Position numbers and translations under genes: made by a program. This document shows, in pieces, positions 6,101-64,000 of a DNA stretch of 64,000 nucleotides. The notes under the pieces are model-generated. The model did no database searches, was not told the origin of the DNA, and saw only the letters and a list, made by a program, of their open reading frames with translations. Every line of letters starts with the position of its first letter. Position 1 is the first letter of the stretch. Source of the stretch: Branchiostoma floridae (lineage: Eukaryota > Chordata > Leptocardii > Amphioxiformes > Branchiostomatidae). The stretch covers positions 15,698,427 to 15,762,426 of the forward strand of contig NC_049996.1 in NCBI RefSeq assembly GCF_000003815.2. Direction: 5' to 3'.

Positions 6101-9100
6101 ATGGACTTGTTCAGGCCAAGGTTCTTCGAGGAAGAAGATGAGGAATCCCTGCAAGATGAGGATGCTGCTCTAGCCCAAGCCATCCTGGCGTCCCTGCGGG
6201 ATGTGTTCCCCCCGGAGCCCCCCACCCCGCCCCCGGGGGACAGCAGTACCCAGAGCTCCGACGAGCCCAGCCCCAACCCTGCCACCAGGCTGGCCAGTAC
6301 AGGGGCAAGCCCTTCCCGAGGTACAACCTCTTCTGTATCATCTGGATATGTACACAAGCTTCTGTATCTGTATAGCTGGCACAACACTTTTATTGAATAA
6401 ATGATTTCCTCACTTAGATCATGTGAAAATGAGTTTTTAGCTTCAGTTAGAGATGTCTCTGTCCGAATATACAGCTTTTTAGTTGGACCTTATGTGTTAC
6501 GCCATGAGGTAGTTACCAATGGGGCATGCAGTAGATACAAATACTGGTACTAACTTTCAATTTGATTGGTTGCTAAGAGAGAGAGAGAGAGAGAACTGGT
6601 TTATTCAGGTAACGTAACAACAACACACACAAAGTACAAGATGGTAGTCTGAACACTAAATTGCCTCATACAATGTACAATAGAGGAAGGCGCCCCCAAA
6701 GTCTACTTGTATTGTAATGTCTATTGAAGTGGAATTTGAAGTATTTTATATAAAATGGAAATGTTTGTGTCCCTGACTGTAGTTCCTCCCGTGGACCCTA
6801 CGCTGTGCCTGCGAATCGGCTGTGGCCGGCCCCGCGCGGTGCATCGCCAGTCTGGCAGGCCTCACGACTTCTGCAGCCTGAGGTGCCTGCAGATGGCCAG
6901 GAGAAGGGGCAGGAGGGGGAGGAACAGTACGTATCTGGGGGGGAGTAATTAATCAGGGATGGTACAGTAATGATTAGGTAGGGAGGGGGAGGAACAGCGC
7001 GGTGCACCGCCAGTCCGGCAGGCCTCACGACTTCTGCAGCCTGAGGTGCCTGCAGATGGCCAGGAGGAGGGGCAGGAGGGGGAGGAACAGTACGTATCTG
7101 GGGGGGATGTATCAATGAGGGAGGGTACAGTAATGGTTAGGGAAGGAGGATAGGCAGAAAGGGGAGGAAAAGTACAGTAGTCTGGCAGGCCTCACGACCT
7201 TTGCAGCCTGAGGTGCCTGCAGATGGCCAGGAGAAGGGGAAGGAGGGGGAGGAACAGTACGTATCTGGGGGGATGTATCAATCAGGGATGGTACAGTAAT
7301 GATTAGGTAGGGAGGGAGGCCTCACGACTTCTGCAGCTTATGATGCCTGCAGATGGCCAGAAGAAGGGGCAGGAGGGGGAGGAACAGTACGTATCTGGGG
7401 GAGTAGTCAATCAGGGATGGTACAGTAATTGTTAGGCAAGGAGGAGAGGCAGAAGGGAGGAAAAGTACAGTAATGGTTAGGTAAGGAGAAGGGGGAGGAA
7501 CAGTACGTATCTGGGGGATTTGTCAGTCAGGGATGGTACATTAATGCTTAGGCAGGAAGGAGAGGCAGAAAGGGCAGGAAAAGTATGTAACTCAGTCACA
7601 CACTATCTGGTTTATCATCTACTGTTCCCTGTAGACTATTGCACTCTTATACTTTTTTGCATGTAGATGTGGAGGCTTAATGGCAGCCCGCCAGCAGCTT
7701 CTATCTTTTGGGTTGGCACTGTGTAGGTTGAGGAGCTGAAGATCTTCCCTTATATGTTGTCAGTCCATCTCTTACAGGGTTTTCCATGTGGGCTCTTAGA
7801 AATAGATAACACATCCACCGTATGCCAGATTTTATGATAAATCCTGGTGTTTTTTACCACTACCAGGTCTGGACCTCCCCTGGCATCTGCTTGAGCTGGA
7901 GCCGCCCCCCACCCCACCCCGACGGACGGACTCCCTGCCCCCTCTGCCCCCCACCCCCCCTCAGCTTCGACAGCTGTGCCAAAGGACAGAGGAGTCTGAG
8001 GACAGGTCAGAATCTCAAGTTTGCATGTCATACATGTAGCTAGAGTTTGAAGCAGGCACTGTCAGTAAAATGTTTTTCCAATTTTGTCATTATTAATAGT
8101 TTTCACTCCACAAAGACCAGAAATCAATCCATTTCCAGCCTGTATCTTAAATGGTAAAAGCTGCATGCATGTGTGTTTGTGTGTGTTCGCACTTTTGTAC
8201 CTGTGTGTGTGCGTGTTTGTGCGTGTGTGCATGTATATCTATATATGTGTGTGTTAGTGTGTGTGTGAGTGTGTGTGTGTGTGTGTGCGTACGTGTTTGC
8301 GTGCCTTAGATCCTCATTGCTGTTTAATTTCTGTTATACTGGAAGCAACACAAAGCAGTATGGGTAAGGGGATGAATCCCGCCATCTCTTATTGCCTTAT
8401 TTGCTTTCACAGTGACTACGAACACCTGACAGTGGGGAGGGGTGACGCAGCAAACCAAGCCAACCCATTGACAAGTACGCCCCAAAGGGATGTCCCCCCG
8501 GGTGAACAGGCACTGTTTCAGATCCCTACAGAGGACGGCACGCTGGGGCCTGAGCCGGCAGATCAGGCACTGTTTCAGATCCCTACAGAGGACAGCGCAC
8601 AGGGAGCGGAGCCTGCAGTCACGGACCCTGATCTCCACAGGGTGTTGGAGCTGTCCAGACTGTCTGCGCAGTTAGCTCCCACTGAGTCTGCTGGTAATGC
8701 CACTTTAGTCTCTTTATATGTATCAATCTATCAATTCATGCATGAAATAGTATGTGGTACATAAGTACATGAACAAATTGTAAAGGTTCGGATACATGGG
8801 CTTAGGTCCTTCGGTACAGGTCCAAACCTAAACAATTATGGTCAATTGTTTGAAAGTTATACATGTAGCCAACTGTCTTTTTAGTTCTAGATTGTTGTTA
8901 TTGTATGATAATTTACATATTTGAATCTCAAAACAGTTTTCTCAATCTTCTAAAGCTTATCTGTCTTTTAATTGGAAATCTTTTTTTCCTTCAGCAGGAG
9001 ACCAGGGAGAGGACGAACTGATCCGTGCCATAGAGCTCTCGCTCCAGCTTTCCACAGCAAACTCTTCCACAGCTCGGCCCTTACAACCGCAGGCTCCCTT

Positions 9101-21442: not shown

Positions 21443-22650
21443 ATGGGAGGAGACGGTCCTCCTAAGGAGCTCAAGATTCCAGACTGGCGGATCTATAAGA
21501 TCCAAGGAACGCCGCTAGAAGACGTGCAGAGAAAGTTACACGCGAAAGGACTACACGACCCTTGGCTCAGGTTTGCATGCGATTTTCGTTTGTACATGTA
21601 GTATGATTTTTCAGCTTATGTGTGTGTTGCCCTGTTTCTCTTGATTTTACGTGTAGTTTGCATCTATTCCTACCTTTTAGTGTACTCTGCAATCTGCAAC
21701 TTGCAACCACTACAAAGCTGCTAGCAGCTCAGTCTATTCTATATAGGGAACATGGAAATATTATTGAATAGCACAAAGTGTTACGTGAATTTGCATCACG
21801 TACTTTTAAATCTAGCTATTTATACTTTGAGAATTACGGATTATAATTCAATCTTCTTAAATTTAGCTTATTTTGTGTTATCAAAGTAGTTCTGAATGTT
21901 TTAATATAGGACTTATTTTTATGATAATGAATATCTAAGACTTAATAATTTTGAACTCTCATTGAGTTTCATAGTTAAACATTCTCAGACTCTAGTCAGA
22001 GCAGGCTTTTAGCTAGGCATGCGTCAACGCGTCATTTAGACGCACTGTCCTAACAAACATAAGAAATCGGACGCAATACTTAGTTTTAAGCAAGACGCAC
22101 TACGGACGCCCAAATTTTTCCTCCCAGCCTCAGTCAGGGCAAACATATTGTAACAGACACAAAAAAATCTTGGCTGAATTCTACAAAATATGCACCTCAA
22201 AATGCAGGAAATAGTATTTCAGAGGGTTATGATGTCAAAAGTTTCCGGGGGGAAACCCACGGACCCCCTACAATGCTCGCGCCGCAGATCACTCCGATTA
22301 CTTTGGACGCCCTAAATTAATTCCTAGCTAAAAGCCTGAGTCAGAGTATATAGTGTGAAAAAATTAGACTGATTTGAAGTAACTCAACAACACTAGACAA
22401 TCTGTTAATCATTTTAAATTCATAATGCTAATCATAATTTTAGATTCCAAAGACAACATACCTTGATCCAACATATAACACATTGATCATTTTTGTGTGT
22501 AGGAACGAAGCGTGGAGGTTCCAACACTTACCAAGAATCACCTTCCCCATGATGGCGTTTCGTGGCTTCAAGTACGGGTTCGCCGCATTTTTGGTGGCAC
22601 TGGCCGTGGAGAAGGCTTTCTTCAGCAGTGATGACCACGGACACCATTAA
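21443..22650 (+). CDS. NDUFB3: NDUFB3 (complex I B12 subunit), 2 exons
   Basis: Accessory subunit of mitochondrial NADH:ubiquinone oxidoreductase, located in the inner-membrane arm. Exons 21443-21570 and 22503-22650 join within an Arg codon (AG|G) to give 91 aa; the human protein is 98. Family features are the [16 protein letters not shown] start, [17 protein letters not shown], then one membrane helix (about residues 62-82, [19 protein letters not shown]) and a short DDHGHH tail with no cleavable presequence. The ATG context (AACATGG) is good. It is divergent from the caspase gene. Confidence 0.95.
22002..22338. mobile_element. hAT-like MITE, CAGGCTTTTAGCTAGG family
   Basis: Ends CAGGCTTTTAGCTAGG and CCTAGCTAAAAGCCTG with perfect 8-bp target repeats AGTCAGAG (21994-22001, 22339-22346). 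In NDUFB3 intron 1. Truncated relatives lie near 50681-50790 and 58840-58867. Confidence 0.92.
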
Positions 22651-22902
22651 CGAACTCCATCCTACCCAGCTTCATAATCATCAACAACACCCCTGTTCTG
22701 GCCGTGGACTGGTCTGGAGTTTCCCAGATGTCGAGAAAATTAGGACTGTTCCACTCTAATCCAGGGCACCATTGACAAACTCCTTGATCCAACCCAGCAT
22801 CATATCATAATGATCAACAACACCCCTTTTCTGGCTGTGGACTGGTCTGGAGTTTCCAAGATGTCAAGAGAAAAACAGGACTGTTCCACTCCAATCCAGG
22901 GA
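22642..22902 (+). repeat. Tandem duplication of NDUFB3 last codons and 3' UTR
   Basis: Unit 1 (22642-22766) and unit 2 (22767-22902) are clearly related (ACACCCC...CTGG, CGTGGACTGGTCTGGAGTTTCC). The unit begins inside the final His codons and includes the stop region, so the copy lies entirely in the 3' UTR. Confidence 0.85.
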
Positions 22903-40898: not shown

Positions 40899-50419
<9,521 letters not shown>

Positions 50420-50479
50420 GGTGGTCACACAGCACCTCGTATACTACTTCTTTCCTACAAAACAAACACCAACATGTCA

Positions 50480-50570
50480 ATAGGACGTCCAGCACAAGAG
50501 ACCCCTCTGTACCCACCTCAGGCATGGTGGTCACAGAGCACCTTGTATACTACTTCTTTTCTACAAGACA
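50480..50570 (-). repeat. Duplicate of the SANBR first coding exon start
   Basis: Nearly identical to 50378-50460, covering 5' leader, acceptor (TTTTGTAG/TCTTGTAG), ATG and the first ~14 codons (MPEVGTEGSLVLDVL). The copy lies directly upstream and also has an ATG (about 50523). Confidence 0.85.
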
Positions 50571-50785
50571 AAACACAAAGAACATGTAAAAATTGACATC
50601 AAAGATCATCTGTGGTAGTAGATGTAGTTGTTCTGAATAAAGCAAAACAGAAGTTTCAACACAAAAACATAACTTGACATCAGGCTTTTAGCTAGGATTC
50701 TTATTTTCATCTAGTGGTCCAATTTCTTACTACATGTATTTTTGGAACAGTGCGTCCAAATGACAGGTGAACACATGCCTAGCTA

Positions 50786-52593: not shown

Positions 52594-55500
52594 ATGCCGG
52601 TCACTCGCAAGATTATAGGCAGGGGAACAGGCAGGGTATGTACCATTGAATATCTCTAATACCTAAATTATTATTGTCAAGAATTCTGTGTGTTATTAGT
52701 ACATATTTCCTTACTACACATAGTTACTAACTATGTGTAGTAAGGAAGTATACTAAGTTACCATAAAATAATGCAGATATATGTCAATACTGTAAGCAAT
52801 AGTAAAATTAATTTTACATGTACAAAAAAAAAGTACATTTGTATAGATATAGTTTGTTTTTTTTTTTGTTTTTTTTTTAAGGTGAAGTCAGTTCCTGCAG
52901 CTGGTAGAGGGAGGGGTGCAGTTGGAAGGGGAAGCAGGAGGTAAATTTCATGGTCGTTGTTTTTGGTATTATTTATTATGTGACAAATGTGATTGCTAAA
53001 TAAAGCCTTGCATTGTTATAATGTCATCAGGAAAGATTTAAAAAAAATGCAAAGCTCAGAGCAAAGGATGCCAGGATTTTATTGTCCAGGCATAATTCGA
53101 AATAAGCAACATTGATAAATCATAAGTCATATCAGGTCTTTTTTCAGTCACTTAAAAAACAGATTTGTGAAGTGCTTCATATTGTTGGTTGCATTCTGAA
53201 ATCTGTCATCAAACCAACGGTAATTGCATGTACTTCCATTGATTTAATGCTGACATATGAACTTACAATTTGTGTGATTTTTAGTTTATAAATCTTGATT
53301 GTCCATAGAGAGTGCTAGTACTAGTAGTAGAATCCTGACAAATCTGATGATTGTCAACACATTTATTTCCAGAACTGTGAGAGGAAAACGTGCGCCTTCT
53401 CCTGTCTACTCAGAGGCTGGCTTCTCTCTGTACTCCACTGACTCAGAGGACCAGGTAGTGCATGTGTTTTTATTTTCTACCTACTCATTTGTCTACTACA
53501 TAGCTGTAGATTTTAAACAACATTTGCAGTCAAATGTGCAAAGGTTATGTGTGACAGGTTGTTCAGCGTAATGTAACCAGCCGTCGCCGTGCCTCAGGCC
53601 TGTGAAGCTGGTGTGTTATGTTGAAAGGTGTTTACACTGGTTGTACAGATTCAGATACAGGAACAGGAGTTGTGAAGTTTTCTTAAACATCATAACTTCA
53701 AGTTTCATGTAGTTGATTTTGTTGATAGTTTGGTCAGATGATATATACGATATTAAGCAATACCCTGGAAATATTAATCAAAGTTGCAAAGTTCTGAAAG
53801 GTACAGTCTTCTTTGCCTCTTGATTTTTTTGTTGTGAATTTTTTAGCAAGGTTTCTACAGAACCAAGTGTCAATAATTAAGAATCTCCAACAGTTTTGTC
53901 TATCACAAAACATCTGAACTAGGATGACACCCAGGCTTCTAGCTTAGTGGCTTTGAAACTTGAACGGTGACTTTCCAACCTTAAAATGACTGATGATTAG
54001 TTATATGTCTACATCTAGAGTTGAAAGTTGAATGCCTTTCAGCTTCCATTTATGTTTCCTTGACTTCTCAGGTCACATCAACCAACAAAGGTCTGGACCG
54101 CTGCGCTGCTCTCCTGGGGGACATCCTCAGTAGAGAACCTGCTGATGCGTCTGGTGCACAAGGTGGGTTACTTTTGTTACAACATTTGTAGGAACATCAT
54201 CATCATTTGTCATGGAACAAGTGAAGTAGGAACAGTGCATGTATTTACAAAGTTGAGCTTTGTTTCAACACAAATAAAGGAATTGTTGCTGCTCATTTTA
54301 TTTGTTCAAGTTTGGATGTGCCACATGACTAGAATATGACAATCAAAAACTAATCACTAGTATCTGAATTGTGAGCTAATTCTTTTCTACATGTAATATT
54401 ATTACATATATGTCTATTATTTACCACAGGTTCTAAACAGAAACCAACCAAGCAGCCAAAAGTTAAGACAAAAGCCAACCCTGCCAAGACTAAAGCACCC
54501 CAGGGTAAGACAAAGATAACCAAGTCTGCTGCAAAGAAAACTACTCTTCAACACCAAACCTCGACCAGAGGTTCCCCTGAAAAAGCCAAGCAGGGAAACT
54601 TGTCACCGTATGCCTTCAGGGTGCCTACAGCTCCAGTACAAGGTACAATAGATCATTTTGAGTTTGCAGGGACCTCAGTATATGGTAGAGGGAAGGGAGA
54701 AATTTGTAGCATCTTAACTTTGCATTGGAAACAGTTGGAACGGTAATACAAGGTAGGGCACATGCTTGCAATGTTGATGAGTTTGAAAACTGAAACAATA
54801 ACCTTACCTTAGACCTTAGAAGTTAGATCCTCCCGCAACACTGTTGCATTGGTCGACTCATCGAGCATACTTTCTCCAAAGGGTGCGGAAACAATAAAGC
54901 CACAGCAAATTTTTCACAATTTACAGTACATCCAGTTGATTCCATATCAATTGCTTGTAGTTGTACATTTTTGCCATTGGGCTTGCAATACCACTCCATG
55001 TTGCTAGGTAGTGCATCTAAGCATGATAATTTTCTCTTCCCTCATCAGGTCCAGTGTTACAGCAGCAGGTGGCATCAGCTGCTCAGAGAACCCTTTTCAA
55101 TGAACGCATCCCAAGTTCCACCCCTAACCTCTCCCCTGACCCCAAGAGGCCCCCCACCCCAAACACACTACTCCAAATGCTGCGTGCTCAAAATCATGGT
55201 CCTGTGCAAAACGTCCCTGTGCCTCACTCCCCACCTCAAAAGGAAGGGGGCCAATATCAACAGGGGAAAGATTTTGATGCTACACCTTCTTACCCAGAAT
55301 CCACCCATCCTGCTGTGCAACCCCCACAGTATGATCAGCTACAATCTCTGCAACACGCGCATTTGGGCAACCCTCAAAACTATGTCCCCAACCAGCCTCA
55401 GCAGCCATATATCAACCAGCAGACTTATCAACAGCCTCTGAGTTATCATCACCCAGGCGCTAACAATGGTCGATATCACCCACCGTCTATAGGTGACGTT

Positions 55501-58500
55501 ATTGGTTATCCTGTACCTACTCCTACTCACCATGAATATATCACAACCAATGGCCATCCTGCACCTACTCGACATGACTATGCCACAACCAGCGGCCAAG
55601 CAGATGGGAGAGAACAGTTAGATAGCATTCCCGTCCGAGATCGTGAAAACGTTAGCCCAACACGACGGTCTCTCTTTCAATCCGGAGGACCTGTTGCTAA
55701 CCATACGCCAGGGAATCGATCATTTGGGAGTGAAACCAATCAAGAGCAGGACGAAACTCTGACCTCAAGTCCAAAACGATCAACCTCACGTCTTTCGGAA
55801 AAGAAAACGCCGCAAACGAGCCCCGGAAAATCTCTGCAGACGTTGAGGTATCTCCTGAGGGAGTTGCAGGCTGCAGGGGATGACCCGGAAGTGAAACGTT
55901 TGTCACAGGAAGTGGAGAGGATTGTGGGACAGCTACCAGAGACCAGGAGGGCTGCTGACATGCAGACTGACATCAACCTGGCACTTCAGCCTCTCAGGTA
56001 TACAGTTTGGTCATTGTGCTTTAAACTATTGTAGCAATTGCATCTAACTCAGTTTTTGTTTTGCTTACTCCAATCCTGTGTCTGACTACATGCCTCTTGT
56101 TTTTATCCTCTATAGCAGCAAAGCCACAACATAAACGTAAGATCTCCTCTAACTCGGATTAAGAATTTGATAGCATTTCAATAATAGTCTCCAGTGTTAG
56201 TACATGTATTTGCTTTTTGATTTTGATTTTGAATTGTTGTAACTTGTATATTAAAGTTGCTTGTTGTCCTGTACCTGTAGAAGTTAGAACAGTCAGCTGA
56301 GGAGGACATGGCTTGTATCCTGAACCAATCATAAATTACAACTCTAACTCAAATTAGGAATTTGACAGTATTTCATTGGTCTCCAGTGATAGTATATTTG
56401 CATTTGGATTTGAAATTTCGAATTGTATAACAAAGTTGTGTTCTCCTGTAGAAGTGAGAACAGTCAGCTGAAGAGGAGGGCTTGTATCCTGAACCAAACA
56501 TGAATTACAAACTCCTCTAATTCAGATTAGGAATTTGACAATATTTCAATGGTCTCCAGTGATAGTAATTACTAGTATTTTGAATTGTAAAACAAAGTTG
56601 TGTTCTCCTGTAGAAGTGAGAACAGTCAGCTGAGGAGGACATGGCTTGTATCCTGAACCAATCATAAATTACAACTCCTCTAACTCAAATTAGGGATTTG
56701 ACAGTATTTCATTGGTTTCCAATGATAGTATATTATCATTTGCTTTTGAATCTGAATTTTGAATTGTATAACAAAGTTGTGTTCTCCTGTAGAAGTGAGA
56801 AGTCAGTTGAGGAGGAGGGCTTGTATCCTGAACCAAACATAAATTACAAACTTCTCTAACTCAAATTAGGAATTTGATAGCATTTCAATGGTCTCCAGTG
56901 ATAGTATAGTACTATTTTGAATTGTATAACAAAGTTGTGTTCTCCTGTAGAAGTGAGAACTGTCAGCTGAGGAGGACATGGCTTGTATCCTGAACCAATC
57001 ATAAATTACAACTCTAACTCAAATTAGGAATTTGATAGCATTTCAATGGTCTCCAGTGATAGTATACTAGTATTTTGAATTGTATAACAAAGTTGTGTTC
57101 TCCTGTAGAAGTGAGAACAGTCAGCTGAAGAGGAGGGCTTGTATCCTGAACCAATCATAAATTACAAACTCCTCAAACTCAGATTAGGAATTTGACACTG
57201 ATGACAGCATTTCAAAGTTCTCCAGTGATAGTATATTAGTATTTGAATCTGAATTTTGAATTGTATAACAAAGTTGTGTTCTCCTGTAGAAGTGAGAACA
57301 GCCAGCTGAGGAGGAGGGCTTGTATCCTGAACCAATCATAAATTACAAACTTCTCTAACTTAAATTAGGAATTTGACAATATTTCAATGGTCTCCAGTGA
57401 TAGTAATTACTAGTATTTTGAATTGTATAACAAAGTTGTGTTCTCTGGTAGAAGTGAGAACAGTCAGCTGAGGAGGAGGGCTTGTATCCTGAACCAAACA
57501 TAAATTACAAACTTCTCTAACTCAAATTAGGAATTTGATAGCATTTCAATGGTCTCCAGTGATAGTATACTAGTATTTTGAATTGTATAACAAAGTTGTG
57601 TTCTCCTGTAGAAGTGAGAACAGTCAGCTGAAGAGGAGGGCTTGTATCCTGAACCAATCATACATTACAAACTCCTCTAAGTCCAATTAGGAATTTGACA
57701 GTATTTCAATGGTCTCCAGTGATAGTATACTAGTATTTTGAATTGTATAACAAAGTTGTGTTCTCCTGTAGAAGTGAGAACAGTCAGCTGAGGAGGAGGG
57801 CTTGTATCCTGAACCAATCATAAATTACAAACTTCTCTAACTCAAATTAGGAATTTGACAGCATTTCAATGGTCTCCAGTGATAGTATATTAGTATTTGC
57901 ATTTGGATTTGAATTTTGAATTGTATAACAAAGTTGTGTTCTCCTGTAGAAGTGAGAACAGTCAGCTGAGGAGGAGGGCTTGTATCCTGAACCAATCATA
58001 AATTACAAACTCCTCTAACTCAGATTAGGAATTTGACAGCATTTCAATGGTCTCCAGTGATAGTATATTAGTAATTACGTTTGAATCTGAATTTTTAATT
58101 GTATGCAAATTCCCATTACTCATTTGATTTCATTTATGATTTCGAGTTATATTATTAGGATTAACGTTGTACAATTGATTTGCCTTATTTTGTCGTAGTT
58201 GAATTGCGTTATTATTTGCCAATTCTTGCTGTGTCACCATTTATTTGATTTTATATTGTTGTCATTATTGTTATGTATGTACGGGGTTTCCCCCAGGGAC
58301 CTTTGAAAAATGCTGACAAGGCGGCATGTATCCCTGGATAAATAGAAACAAACAAACAAACAAATAACAAAGTTGTGTTCTCCTGTAGAAGTGAGAACAG
58401 CCAGCTGAGGAGGAGAGCTTGTATCCCGAACCAAACACATGAATTACAAACTTCTCTAACTCAAATTAGGAATTTGACAGTATTTCAATGGTCTCCAGTG

Positions 58501-61500
58501 ATAGTATAGTATTTTGAATATTTAGAATTGTATAACAAAGTTGTGTTCTCCTGTAGAAGTGAGAACAGCCAGCTGAGGAGGAGAGTCCGTATTCTGAACC
58601 AGCAGCTCAGGGAGAAGGAGAGGGCTGAGAGGGAGAACAGGGCGCCTGACTTCAGCTTTGAGGGTGAGGCTTTTAAAGTCCTTCTGGCTTAGACATCATC
58701 TTGAGAGATGTCACAGTAGAATGACCTAGTGACTTCCCTGTCAATCAGAATTCCATGCTTGTCAGAGGACCTGCTCCCCAGTGTAAGGATGTGTAGTGCT
58801 TTAAATTTCTTGTTATTTTAAGAAAAGCGTGTCCAAATGAGGCCATGACGCATGCCTGACTAAAAGCCTGATGATGACCTTGTCCCCAGTGGAGTCTCTT
58901 CACTCCCTTCAGACATGCTATGATCGTGATGTTTTAGTGGTAGAATAGCTCTTGCGGTGGAGAGTAAGTGATATAGGTTTGGGCCCTCTTGTGACTTGTT
59001 TTGGAACTTCAGGAACCTGTTTAGGGTCAGACTTTTTTTGAAGAGATTCATTAGTCAAGTATGTACACAGTTAATAGGATTTTCATCAAGCAGTGACTAC
59101 TTTTTAAAGGTAAACACACGTACCTCCAAATTTTTTATGGCTATCAGACCATTTTGATCACGGAGTGACCAATGGACTCTCGTGGGAACTGGGTCACTAC
59201 GTGATCAAGATGGACTGAGTGATAGCTATCGAAAATTTGGAGGTACCTTTAAAAAGTAGTCACTGCTCAATGAAAATCCGATTAACCAGACATTTTTGAG
59301 TTGCTGTTGACCTTGTCCCCAGTCGAGTCTCTGCGCTCCATGAACATGTCCCTGCAGAAGCAGCTTTCCTGTAACAGTACTGCAGCAGAACTTCCAGTTG
59401 TGATATTTCGTGTGGTAGATTTTTGAGTTTTGAAATGTTGCTGTTGATCCTGTCCCCAGTCGAGTCCCTGCGATCCCTGAACATGTCCCTGGAGAAGCAG
59501 CTGCAGGACCAGGCCGGCCAGCAGGAGGCGCTGCAGTGCAGGGTGGAGGACCTGAGGCGGGAGTGCGACCAGCTCAGACTGGACAACAAGAACCTGATGG
59601 ACATGGTGGGGATGGATGGATAGATGGATGAATGAATGAAGGAATGAATGAATACAGGAATGAAGGAATGAGTGCGGGAATGAAGGAATGAGTGAGTGCA
59701 GGAATGAAGGAATGAATGAAGGGATGAGTGCATGAATGAAGGAAGGAATGAGTGCATGAATGAAGGAATGAATTAAGGAATGAGTGCAGGAATGAAGAAA
59801 TGAGTGCAGGAATGAAGGAATGAGTGAGTGAGTGCAGGAATGAAGGAATGAGTGCATGAATGAAGGAATGAGTGCATGAATGAAGGAATGAGTGCATGAA
59901 TGAAGGAATAAGTGCATGAATAAAGGAATGAGTGCATGAAGGAACGAATGAAGGAATGAGTGCAGGAATGAAGGAATGAGTGCATTAATGAAGGAATGAG
60001 TGAATGAAGGAAGGAAGGAATGAATGAAAGAAGGAATGAATGAATGAAGGAATTCTGTAGCTGAACAATTTCTGGTACAATGTATGTCAACTAATAATGA
60101 CAACTACATTGTACTAGCTATAAATGGTACCACGAGGCTACATACAAAACAGTTAAGTATTATTAGTAACATACTCTCTCCCAAGGAGGAATAGAGGAAG
60201 GAAAGCAATGAACGAAAGAAGGAATGAATGAATGAATAAAATAAGGAATTCACAATGTACAATGTATGACAACCAATAACAGCTACTAGTTATATCGACA
60301 ATGGTACTACAAGGCTACATACAGAACAACAAAATAATATTAATAACAGCACAGTCATGCATGAGTGATCTGGTCTTTCATTTGAAATGATTGACCTAGG
60401 TAGGCAGATATACGAGTTAAACATCATAGCAGTATATGGAAAATATCGTTCTGTGTTCCAGTAAGAGAGATGTGTGTTTTGGTTCTAATATTCTTAATTT
60501 AAACAATGCTTCTCTCTCTTTACTGTAGGTGGGGCAGAAGGACACCCAGAGCCTCAACACCAAGGCGGAGTGGGACGCCCAGATGGCCAGAGTTAAACAA
60601 GGTAACTGGTGGACATACTGACTGATAATTTCTAATTGATCCAAAGTCTGGTACATTGATTTTTTTTCAGGTCTGCTTTTTCCCGACCAGTCAAAGAAGA
60701 TAACCAGTTTTGTACCGGTACACCAGTCCCTTGGGCTGACTAGTCGTAATGGGGACATGAAGCCAGCAGCCCATTGTACGAGGGATCTTAAGGCATTGAA
60801 AAAGTCTACTTAATTATAACATTTCATAGCCTGCAGCAGTTCTAAGGTTTGAAGCGGAAGTTTGTTTATTTATTTGTTTATCTGTAGACGTGGGTGCTAC
60901 CTTACAGCAGGTCCAGGGTCTGAAGCTGAAATTGTATATTTATTTGTTTGTTTGTTTGTTTATCCCTGTAGATGTGAGTGCTACCTTACAGCAGGTCCAG
61001 GGCCTGAAGCTAAAGTTAGAGGCAGTAGAGATGGAGAACGGAACCCTCCTGGTGATGTTTGTTTGTTTATCCCTGTAGATGTGAGCGCTTCCTTACATCA
61101 GTGGAGATGGAGAATGGAACCCTCCGGATGATATTTGTTTGTTTGTTTATCCCTGTAGATGTGAGCACTACCTTACAGCAGGTCCAGGGTCTGAAGCTGA
61201 AGTTAGAGGCAGTGGAGATGGAGAATGGAGCCCTCCTGGTGATGTTTGTTTGTTTGTTTGTTTGTTTGTTTGTTTATCCCTGTAGATGTGAGCGCTACCT
61301 TACAGCAGGTGCAGGGTCTGAAGCTGAAGTTAGAGGCAGAAGCTGAAGTTTGTTTTTTATTTGGTTATGTTTGTTTATCTTTTTATTTGTTTGTTTATCC
61401 CTGTAGATGTGAGTGCTACCCTTCAACAAGTCCAAGGTTTGAAGCTGAAGCTAGAAGCAGTAGAGATGGAGAATGGAACCCTCCTGGTGACTATCAGACA

Positions 61501-64000
61501 GAAGGATGCAGAGATTAGGAGACTGGAAATTCTCACAAGGTCAGCTTCGGTTTTGTTACCTCCGTGAAATGGAGGTTTTGTACTGACTGCTGTGTCTTTG
61601 TCCCGGAGATGTCTGTTTGCAAGATAACAAAGAGGACGAAGCATGGAACTTTGTTCGAAGCTAGAAGTGCAATGCGGCTCTGCTGTGTTTCACAAATATG
61701 AAGGACAACTGCTTTGCCTTCTTAACTTAGATCAATAATGATATGATCTGGTGGCAGTGTTGTCTCCATCCCGAAATAAAAATTCAATTCTCGTGACGGA
61801 TAAAAATTTCGTCCCATCCATCCAAAACATCTAATCTTCCTGACATGAAATTGCTGAAAATATTGTTAAAGGTAAAAATGACTGATTTGACAACATAAAC
61901 ATGGACTCCCAAACAAAAGTTGAGAAGGGAAAAAAATAAAGCTTCAGCTAGACATCCATGCCTTGTGGTGAGTTTTTAAAGTACATTCTTGACTGATAGT
62001 TGTGATATAGTCTTAATATATGACCAGGTGGTCACTTTTTCCATGTCTCCCTGACTGCATACTCCTACGCAGGGACATCCAACACCCAAACTGCCTGTCT
62101 GGATGTACCCTGCTCTTCAGCCGTCACCCTTAGTTCCTGACCGCCCTGCTTATAAATATTAATGAGGTTACCTTACCCTTATACATGCAAGACAGCTTTT
62201 GAAAACAGAAAGCATATTCTCTGATTGGCTGACAGCTGGTTTGGGGGGGGACGTCCACAGGAACTAAGAGTGACGGTTGAAACAGCAGGGTACATCCAGA
62301 CAGGCAGTTTGGCTGTTGGATGTCCCTGCATAGGAGGATGCCCTGATTGATAATTGTGATGTTCCCATACTCTAGGGACCTCCACTCCAGCATGTCCTAC
62401 CTGCTGCGGGACCTGCAGAACTCAGGACCGGGCACCAGGAATGTGGATGGGCTCACTTTGGAGAGGGTGGAGCACTTCCTCAGGACACACAGTGTGGACA
62501 GGTAGCACCAGAAACCCTTCAAATAGCCTCACATCCACGCATAGTAAAGTTCTTTGTTGTACAACCAAAGGATTTACCTGCCAAAGGTTTTTGAAGTTCT
62601 GATGATTATTACCAGCTGTAAAATGCTAAATTTGCACTTTCTTTGAAACAATCGTTTTTCCGACCGCTCAATCATTGTGTCAATTGAGTAGAGATAGGCC
62701 TGGCCCATTTGTTAAGACAATTAAGCATGGAAAGTGTTTTTGCATGGAGATAAAACATCAACTAGTCTAAGGTTTTATAGTAGTCTTTCTACCTTCCTCA
62801 ATGCAATAATGACTGAACCTACTACCTGCAGCAAGGTACCATTGCAGTGGAAGAATTAGGTCCTAAAAGATGCTGCACTTTTATCCTGCCTCATCACTTT
62901 TAGAACTGCAGTCTTCTCACTGTAGCTGTTGAAAAGTTGAAGATGAGTCCACAAAAGTTTTTATGAACAGCCTGCATCTTACAACAGTAATAACCTGCAA
63001 TGAGCTGAAGTCATCTTGTGTTTTTATGTCTCCCAACAGCGTCCTCCAGCTTGCAAGTCCTGAGGGGGGTCAGCCCAACTTCTACGGCAGCCCAACACGC
63101 CGGACAGCGGAAAGCGACTTGCCTGGTCAACCGCAACCCCTCCCGACCAATCACCATGGCAGCGGGATGCCACGGCAACAAGAACCACGCCCTTCGGGTG
63201 GCCAGTTGCCACGGCAACCCTACAGCTCTCAGTCACATGCTACCAGCTATGGTCATCCATCACGCCTCCCCAGTTACCATGGCAACAAATCTCCACGGCA
63301 GCAGTCTGAACCACGCCTCCCAAGTTACCGTGGCAATTCGTCACCAAGGCAACAGTCTGAACCACCTCCCACAGCTGGTCCACAGGCAGAGCTACCCAAG
63401 ACTCCAGCGTCTGTAAAGAGGGCCTTACAGTTCGAGGATGTGAACGGAAGGAAGAGCGAAGACGTCACGGGAAGTTCTCTGACAGAACAGCACCTGGCTG
63501 ACCATCAGAGGAGTATTGAGGAGAAAAGTGTCCCAAAGTTTGGTGTCGGTAACAACGACGTTCCTGCAAGCTATGATCACTCTCAACAAGGTTTAACTAG
63601 AGAGGCTATATCCGCACACGACAGATCAGGACAGCAGTATACTGTCCCAGCGCCCCCCTCCCCCAAAAAGCAAGGTGTAGGAACTCAGGGTGTTCTGGCT
63701 CACTCGTTCAACGGTTATCCACCGTCCGACTTTGACCATGACTCCACCATGTACGCTTCCCTACCCTCCAATGTGGGGAGACCGCAGTGGAAGCCAACAC
63801 CAACAAAAGTGTTCATGGACAGAAAGCCAGCAGCACAAAAACATCAAGAAAACGGTGGAACAAAACTGCAGTGGTACCAGTCACAGTTCTCCCAACCTTA
63901 CAAAGAAAACATTCCAGATCGATCTACAAATGCTCGCTCTTTCAGACCAGATGGTGCTGACGTCAGCAGACCGAACTCGAAACAGGACCATCTCTTCAGA
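52594..64000 (+). CDS. CCDC14: CCDC14-like centriolar-satellite coiled-coil protein (12 exons, 3' end outside)
   Basis: Exons: 52594-52635, 52882-52940, 53373-53454, 54072-54162, 54430-54642, 55049-55997, 58557-58663, 59460-59605, 60529-60601, 61407-61539, 62376-62501, 63040-64000 (continuing). Phases join to 994 codons at the window end. Order of parts: an RG/GR-rich start; GFSLYSTDSEDQ with GLDRCAALLGDIL, which is the most family-specific stretch; a Lys-rich then Pro/Gln/His-rich exon; LQTLRYLLRELQAAGDDPEV; a coiled coil from exon 7 (SENSQLRRRVRILNQQLREK) to exon 10 (QQVQGLKLKLEAVEMENG, RQKDAEIRRLE); a helical MSYLLRDLQ block; and a long disordered exon with LPSYxGNxSPRQQSEP repeats. CCDC14 in vertebrates works at centriolar satellites with PCM1/KIAA0753. 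The identification is from the GFSLYSTDSEDQ block plus overall layout. The ATG at 52594 is used because it is first in frame. Confidence 0.65.
56120..58556 (+). repeat. ~160-180-bp tandem array of acceptor-bearing copies of CCDC14 exon 7
   Basis: At least 12 copies precede the real exon 7 start (58557). Each has TTGTGTTCTCCTGTAG|AAGTGAGAACAG plus about 45 nt matching the exon, then TTAGGAATTTGACAG, CAATGGTCTCCAGTGATAG. Starts of the exon-like part: about 56281 (weak), 56453, 56615, 56793, 56951, 57110, 57291, 57453 (CTGGTAG), 57612, 57772, 57952 and 58389. Most copies would read R-SENSQLRRRACILNQ then stop (TAA/TGA). Confidence 0.92.
58880..59358 (+). repeat. Two partial upstream copies of CCDC14 exon 8
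   Basis: CTTGTCCCCAG|TGGAGTCTCTTCACTCC (about 58883-58912) and CTTGTCCCCAG|TCGAGTCTCTGCGCTCC (about 59310-59363) match the exon 8 acceptor and start (59449-59500). Both copies reach a stop soon after the copied segment. Confidence 0.85.
59071..59285. mobile_element. Near-perfect foldback element in CCDC14 intron
   Basis: Arms TTAATAGGATTTTCATCAAG..CAGTGACTAC..AAAGGT and ACCTTT..GTAGTCACTG..GAAAATCCGATTAA enclose a second palindrome (TGATCACGGAGTGACC/GGTCACTACGTGATCA). The outer tips end in TTAA. No protein is encoded. Confidence 0.85.
59606..60053 (+). repeat. GAATGAAG-type minisatellite starting at the CCDC14 exon 8 donor
   Basis: The intron begins ATG|GTGGGGATGGATGGATAG and at once enters an array of GAATGAAGGAATGAGTGCAG-like units running about 440 bp. 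Large minus-strand open frames with HSFLHSFI-type repeats (59260-60103) are artefacts of the array. Confidence 0.92.
60870..61330 (+). repeat. Tandem partial copies of CCDC14 exon 10 with acceptors
   Basis: Five copies of (GTTT)nATCCCTGTAG|ATGTGAGTGCTACCTTACAG plus CAGGTCCAGGGTCTGAAGCTG (exon-like starts about 60888, 60972, 61077, 61160 and 61287) precede the real exon 10 at 61407. Some extend to GAGATGGAGAATGGAACCCTCCTG. Part of a mostly 80-130-bp tandem series. Confidence 0.9.
62070..62328. mobile_element. CAGGGACATCC-ended inverted-repeat element
   Basis: Ends CAGGGACATCCAACACCCAA and TTGGCTGTTGGATGTCCCTG with long internal complementarity (CTGCCTGTCTGGATGTACCCTG versus CAGGGTACATCCAGACAGGC). 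No protein or clear target duplication is seen. A partial relative is at 47800-47977. Confidence 0.8.

Follow-up and report, generated by a model that had tools for sequence, protein, structure and literature searches.

Minisatellites that span the boundary between an intron and an exon have been described in lancelets, where they were termed "mirages" (PMC3087553, PMC3902484). In the accessible parts of these reports, the globin gene BflGb6 carries a mirage of 150-160-bp units (6 and 3 units in two haplotypes), BflGb9 carries one of 157 bp on the donor side, and the edge units of globin mirages are reported as more diverged (PMC3087553); the second report adds a mirage in PGBD5 and cites those of Adh and troponin C (PMC3902484). 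As far as these sources were available, the globin, Adh and troponin C mirages are stated not to disturb splicing (PMC3087553, PMC3902484). Here we analyse an intron of a CCDC14-like gene of Branchiostoma floridae in which the acceptor of a 107-nt exon is preceded by an array of twelve decoy copies of itself. The detailed study covered a 64-kb window (the whole stretch of 64,000 nucleotides, contig NC_049996.1, positions 15,698,427 to 15,762,426 of the forward strand), and searches covered the 513-Mb, 431-contig assembly. The array is very probably a lancelet mirage minisatellite, produced by local tandem duplication and partial homogenisation, and its decoys are most likely tolerated. Coordinates below are those of the window, on the plus strand unless the minus strand is named.

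The initial annotation had called the gene CCDC14-like, an identity upheld by the match of our joined gene model to Pfam PF15254 (E 2.3e-45). The model joins exons 55030-55997, 58557-58663, 61407-61539, 62376-62501 and 63040 onward, and is free of stops to the window end. Its start at 55030 includes a few intronic bases, the likely acceptor of the exon upstream of the array being at 55049 (judged from the AG at 55047-55048), so that this coding exon, with its open frame and compatible phase, probably occupies 55049..55997. It ends in the donor CAG/GTATAC at 55997/55998 (score 6/9; the slash marks the splice boundary). The real exon on the other side of the intron, 58557..58663, has the acceptor CTCCTGTAG/AAGTG and the donor AGG/GTGAGG (7/9), and its frame runs stop-free into the next exons. 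Between 55997 and 58557 there are 13 acceptor copies, the real site at 58557 and 12 decoys, in agreement with the roughly twelve first reported.

Each unit joins roughly the final 115-135 nt of the intron to ~45 nt of exon. The exon copy ends at GAACCA, after 45 nt in 8 of the 12 decoys, 47 in three and 43 in one, and the remainder of the 107-nt exon is without copies in the array; the composition of the unit first noted is thus confirmed across all 12. Units are 158-181 bp long in 11 of 12 cases, and the one broken by an insertion measures 190 bp (with the cut chosen at 58104). The exact CTCCTGTAG acceptor is present in ten decoys, which show no mismatch to the real site from -20 to +3; the decoy at 57452 has two mismatches over this stretch and that at 56281 has eleven. 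With spans that run from about -20 to the last base copied from the exon, and with the first exon base in brackets, the decoys are d01 at 56261..56327 (56281), a degenerate edge copy with an early stop; d02 at 56432..56496 (56452); d03 at 56594..56660 (56614), d04 at 56773..56835 (56793) and d05 at 56931..56997 (56951), all three with frameshifted exon copies; d06 at 57089..57153 (57109); d07 at 57270..57334 (57290); d08 at 57432..57496 (57452), with the acceptor CTCTGGTAG; d09 at 57592..57656 (57612); d10 at 57752..57816 (57772); d11 at 57930..57994 (57950); and d12 at 58369..58433 (58389), a diverged edge copy. Unit homology begins at ~56128, inside a degenerate partial copy, and the whole acceptor-type array (56128..58601) comprises this partial unit, the 12 decoy units and the real boundary, together with an inserted dispersed repeat. 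The description of the array as tandem holds for its units (Tandem Repeats Finder scores of 2360 and 2434) and fails for its continuity, since the dispersed repeat interrupts it at 58105..58345 (limits approximate), just ahead of the last decoy. This repeat has an AAAC-rich tail and 40 scored matches in the genome including itself, the other 39 being 87-93% identical. A query with 56120-56400 gave 13 matches in the assembly, all at this locus, which is not proof of absence elsewhere.

Judged by sequence, the array fits the mirage class in every feature tested here; it is of a known kind, with more copies than the published cases as given in the accessible text of those papers. The genome is a lancelet one: the exons of its GFP family reach 88% identity to a lancelet-derived GFP query. 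In common with the amphioxus mirages, the tandem unit lies across an intron-exon boundary and takes in only the 3' end of the intron and a 5' part of the exon, and the inner units are homogenised while the edges are diverged (d12 partly through the insertion). Unit length (158-181 bp) is at or slightly above the top of the 150-160 bp of BflGb6, whereas copy number differs: the CCDC14-like gene has 12 decoys, and the two BflGb6 haplotypes have 6 and 3 units. The units of the Adh3 mirage described by Canestro et al. in 2002 are reportedly 10-72 bp. The CCDC14-like gene also departs from the published mirages in having a second mirage at its next acceptor and a dispersed repeat within the array. 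Two further loci in the assembly resemble the globin cases by architecture: L017, with 158-bp units and three decoys ahead of a globin exon, is likened to BflGb6, and L013, with a donor-side copy at offset 157 beyond which the sequence reads N, to BflGb9. The published globin mirages being those of B. floridae, this likeness points to that species or one closely related. More distant likenesses exist. In the lancelet gene VCBP3, introns near true exons contain whole exons or parts of them, and canonical splice sites accompany some of these; partial intronic exon copies beside true exons are thus shared, but the available part of that report describes no regular tandem array (PMC2632668). Intron gain through tandem duplication of AG/GT sites, a model discussed in PMC3087553 (seen in part), invokes the same type of duplication; the CCDC14-like copies, however, stay intronic and all reach stops, with no new intron.

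Among themselves the inner units d02-d11 are 90-97% identical, and the edges less so (d01 84-91%, d12 83-89%); the unit tree is mostly unresolved, with no starred branch. Because the exon copies of four of the 12 decoys (d01, d03, d04 and d05) are frame-shifted and d01 also stops at once, no coding constraint on them is seen at the sequence level. The most likely origin of this pattern is a tandem duplication of the ~115-135 nt at the 3' end of the intron together with ~45 nt from the start of the exon. Slippage or unequal exchange would then have enlarged the array, with partial homogenisation of the inner units, and a dispersed repeat would have landed in one unit.

The initial annotation had left three options for the array: a dedicated decoy system, a hidden truncated isoform, or structural noise that the spliceosome must ignore. 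The last of these, in the form of a lancelet mirage minisatellite, fits best, and the array is most likely a duplication by-product ignored by the splicing machinery rather than a designed decoy system, for which positive support was not found. Evidence for any function of the array was likewise not found, and it is probably harmless. The real acceptor is the final copy, and it alone continues into the full exon, with a good donor 107 nt on. With ten of the decoys identical to it from -20 to +3, local strength cannot explain the choice of acceptor; exon definition would most likely skip the decoys, whose local acceptor is the same but which lack a good donor within the reach of an exon. From the first decoy up to the real exon, no donor attains 7/9, the score of the real donor 107 nt from its acceptor. 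Reading the upstream exon into the decoys gives an early stop in all 12 cases, in keeping with the truncation first predicted. The tail RSENSQLRRRACILNQ, said to be common to most copies, is exact in only four, or in seven if R>K is allowed, and the other five tails differ. Premature stops with splice junctions downstream are substrates of nonsense-mediated decay, so that transcripts with an exon lengthened in this way would probably be lost. The decoys would thus be tolerated because a good donor is missing within exon distance and because misuse leads to early stops.

Several observations weigh against this interpretation. The divergence of d12 is partly owed to the adjoining inserted repeat. 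Among the core units the acceptor and exon part is less variable (9/81 versus 18/70 columns, p = 0.03), which hints weakly at conversion or constraint. Once the full set of 12 is compared, the regional difference is gone (p = 0.59), and the intron end by itself varies more than the rest (p = 0.03); selected decoys, as a reading of regional variability, were dropped, given a weak result that depends on the units included. As to donors, a donor-like GTGAGA that scores 6/9 lies 2 nt past the acceptor in 11 of the 12 decoys (and 2 nt after the AG in the real copy, a spacing too short for exon definition), further 6/9 sites follow the first decoy at 56565, 56802, 57403 and 58275, and the genuine donor of the upstream exon itself scores only 6/9. 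The missing-donor argument is therefore not absolute. Nor is the scarcity of donors statistically notable, with none observed against 7.3 expected under a Markov model and 4.6 at the window rate. As the units are copies of one another and a single unit would be expected to hold ~0.57 donors of at least 7/9, this scarcity carries no signal of selection, and donor depletion was rejected as a sign of it. Finally, of the 21 decoys ahead of a myosin exon (see below), 11 contain a donor-like site of 7/9 at a distance of 15 nt; donor absence is thus not a general rule of mirages, and other rules must apply there.

Of the other explanations, the one that survives best, unlikely as we hold it to be, is a copy-number-dependent brake, in which decoys are used at a low rate, the products fall to nonsense-mediated decay and array length tunes CCDC14 output. 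The local identity of 10/12 decoys to the real acceptor and the early stop that follows all 12 are what such a brake would call for, and d12 joined to the real donor would give an exon of ordinary size (275 nt), which for this reason is predicted to be the leakiest decoy under exon definition. Against this, published lancelet mirages are reported, in the portions accessible, as not disturbing splicing (PMC3087553, PMC3902484), and arrays of the same anatomy are found in genes of other kinds and also at donor sites, which makes a gene-specific role unnecessary. An idea to which we give still less credence joins a genome-wide class of mirages, in several per cent of lancelet exons, to a brake that would vary in the population because arrays change length quickly, and that would act through leaky use of the decoy nearest the donor. 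If it were true, decay in proportion to array layout would make for heritable, and perhaps also somatic, variation in expression.

It is improbable that the array is an assembly artefact, a short repeat having been collapsed or expanded. Tandem arrays are difficult to assemble, and an older draft had misassembled a globin mirage, according to the part of PMC3087553 available; on the other hand, the units are distinct (83-97% identity), a dispersed repeat lies within the array and like architecture is found at many loci. The copy number in the assembly may be wrong. The hidden isoform, in which a decoy acceptor would open a terminal exon with a poly(A) site inside the array, has very poor prospects. 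A stop does follow each decoy, and CATAAA, the only recurring variant hexamer among those sought, occurs 10 times in 56120-58556; the tail sequence and frame vary among units, however, and a separate truncated isoform is unlikely because the same interval contains no AATAAA and its single ATTAAA (56250) precedes every decoy. Recursive (ratchet) splicing or mutually exclusive tandem exons, brought to mind by acceptors repeated within one intron and by the GTGAGA 2 nt past 11 of the 12, are barely credible: the copies read GTAG/AAGT and not the AG/GT of a ratchet site, a 2-nt exon is implausible, no 7/9 donor follows any copy before the real exon, and all 12 copies reach stops.

As a lancelet mirage, the CCDC14-like array offers a natural test of how the spliceosome chooses among identical acceptors. 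Exon definition predicts most leakage at d12, first-come kinetics at the 5' copies, and ordinary RNA reads could separate the two. In the literature as far as accessible, mirages have so far been reported gene by gene, and this array is a large new case. How common they are matters for annotating genes and for the suggestion that mirages seed new introns. Our literature search, which covered subscription papers only in part, found no genome-wide survey of mirages.

The initial annotation had considered the array exceptional. This is not supported for the genome studied: there are five boundary arrays in the window by reading, boundary copies at 10 of 123 sampled exons, and a myosin exon with 21 decoys. 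The second array in the CCDC14-like gene is an acceptor-type mirage at 60860..61490, with five decoys (60888, 60972, 61079, 61159 and 61286) ahead of the acceptor at 61407 of the next real exon (61407..61539, in the stop-free joined frame). The other three were identified by eye rather than from annotated genes. One is a donor-type mirage at 6784-7514, in which what seems to be the real donor GT lies at 6927 and is followed downstream by four copies with GTACGTATCTGG (7090, 7257, 7387 and 7503). Another, on the minus strand at 48061-48490, is also of donor type, the exon end and donor being repeated three times downstream of an apparent real donor at ~48489. The last, at 50376-50572 on the minus strand, is a two-copy acceptor mirage (106 bp; acceptor 50454 and one copy) that spans the apparent start codon of a gene.

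The 123 exons were located by protein search, and boundary copies were found in 4 of 66 GFP exons (from 68 match rows, of which two were set aside as being copied pieces), 2 of 9 globin, 1 of 30 kinase (of 129 matches, 30 were examined) and 3 of 18 myosin exons (18 of 142 examined). Kinases are a poor family for such a survey, since many matches fall within single large open frames. From this small, non-random sample of one genome, the count suggests that mirages affect several per cent of its exons. A search with the profile PF01353 gave no GFP matches, and the GFP exons were then located by protein query. Two of the GFP cases involve seemingly the same exon of paralogous genes, one of the two copies being degenerate, and may share an origin. 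The myosin exon mentioned above encodes the P-loop (GESGAGKTE) and has its 21 decoy acceptors upstream with a 49-50-bp period (L076, 2132-3233); another exon of the same gene is copied at both its ends. The kinase exon carries mirages at its acceptor and at its donor, with two decoys each (L053, 1182-1550 and 1819-2398).

Two minor observations from the window may be added. The GTTT-rich stretch ahead of the acceptors at 60860-61490 resembles, through weak matches, the tail of the inserted repeat (58105-58345) when this is read in reverse. At 22639-22901, just past an apparent coding exon, there is a two-copy repeat with an offset of 125 that by eye resembles one lying in a 3' untranslated region.

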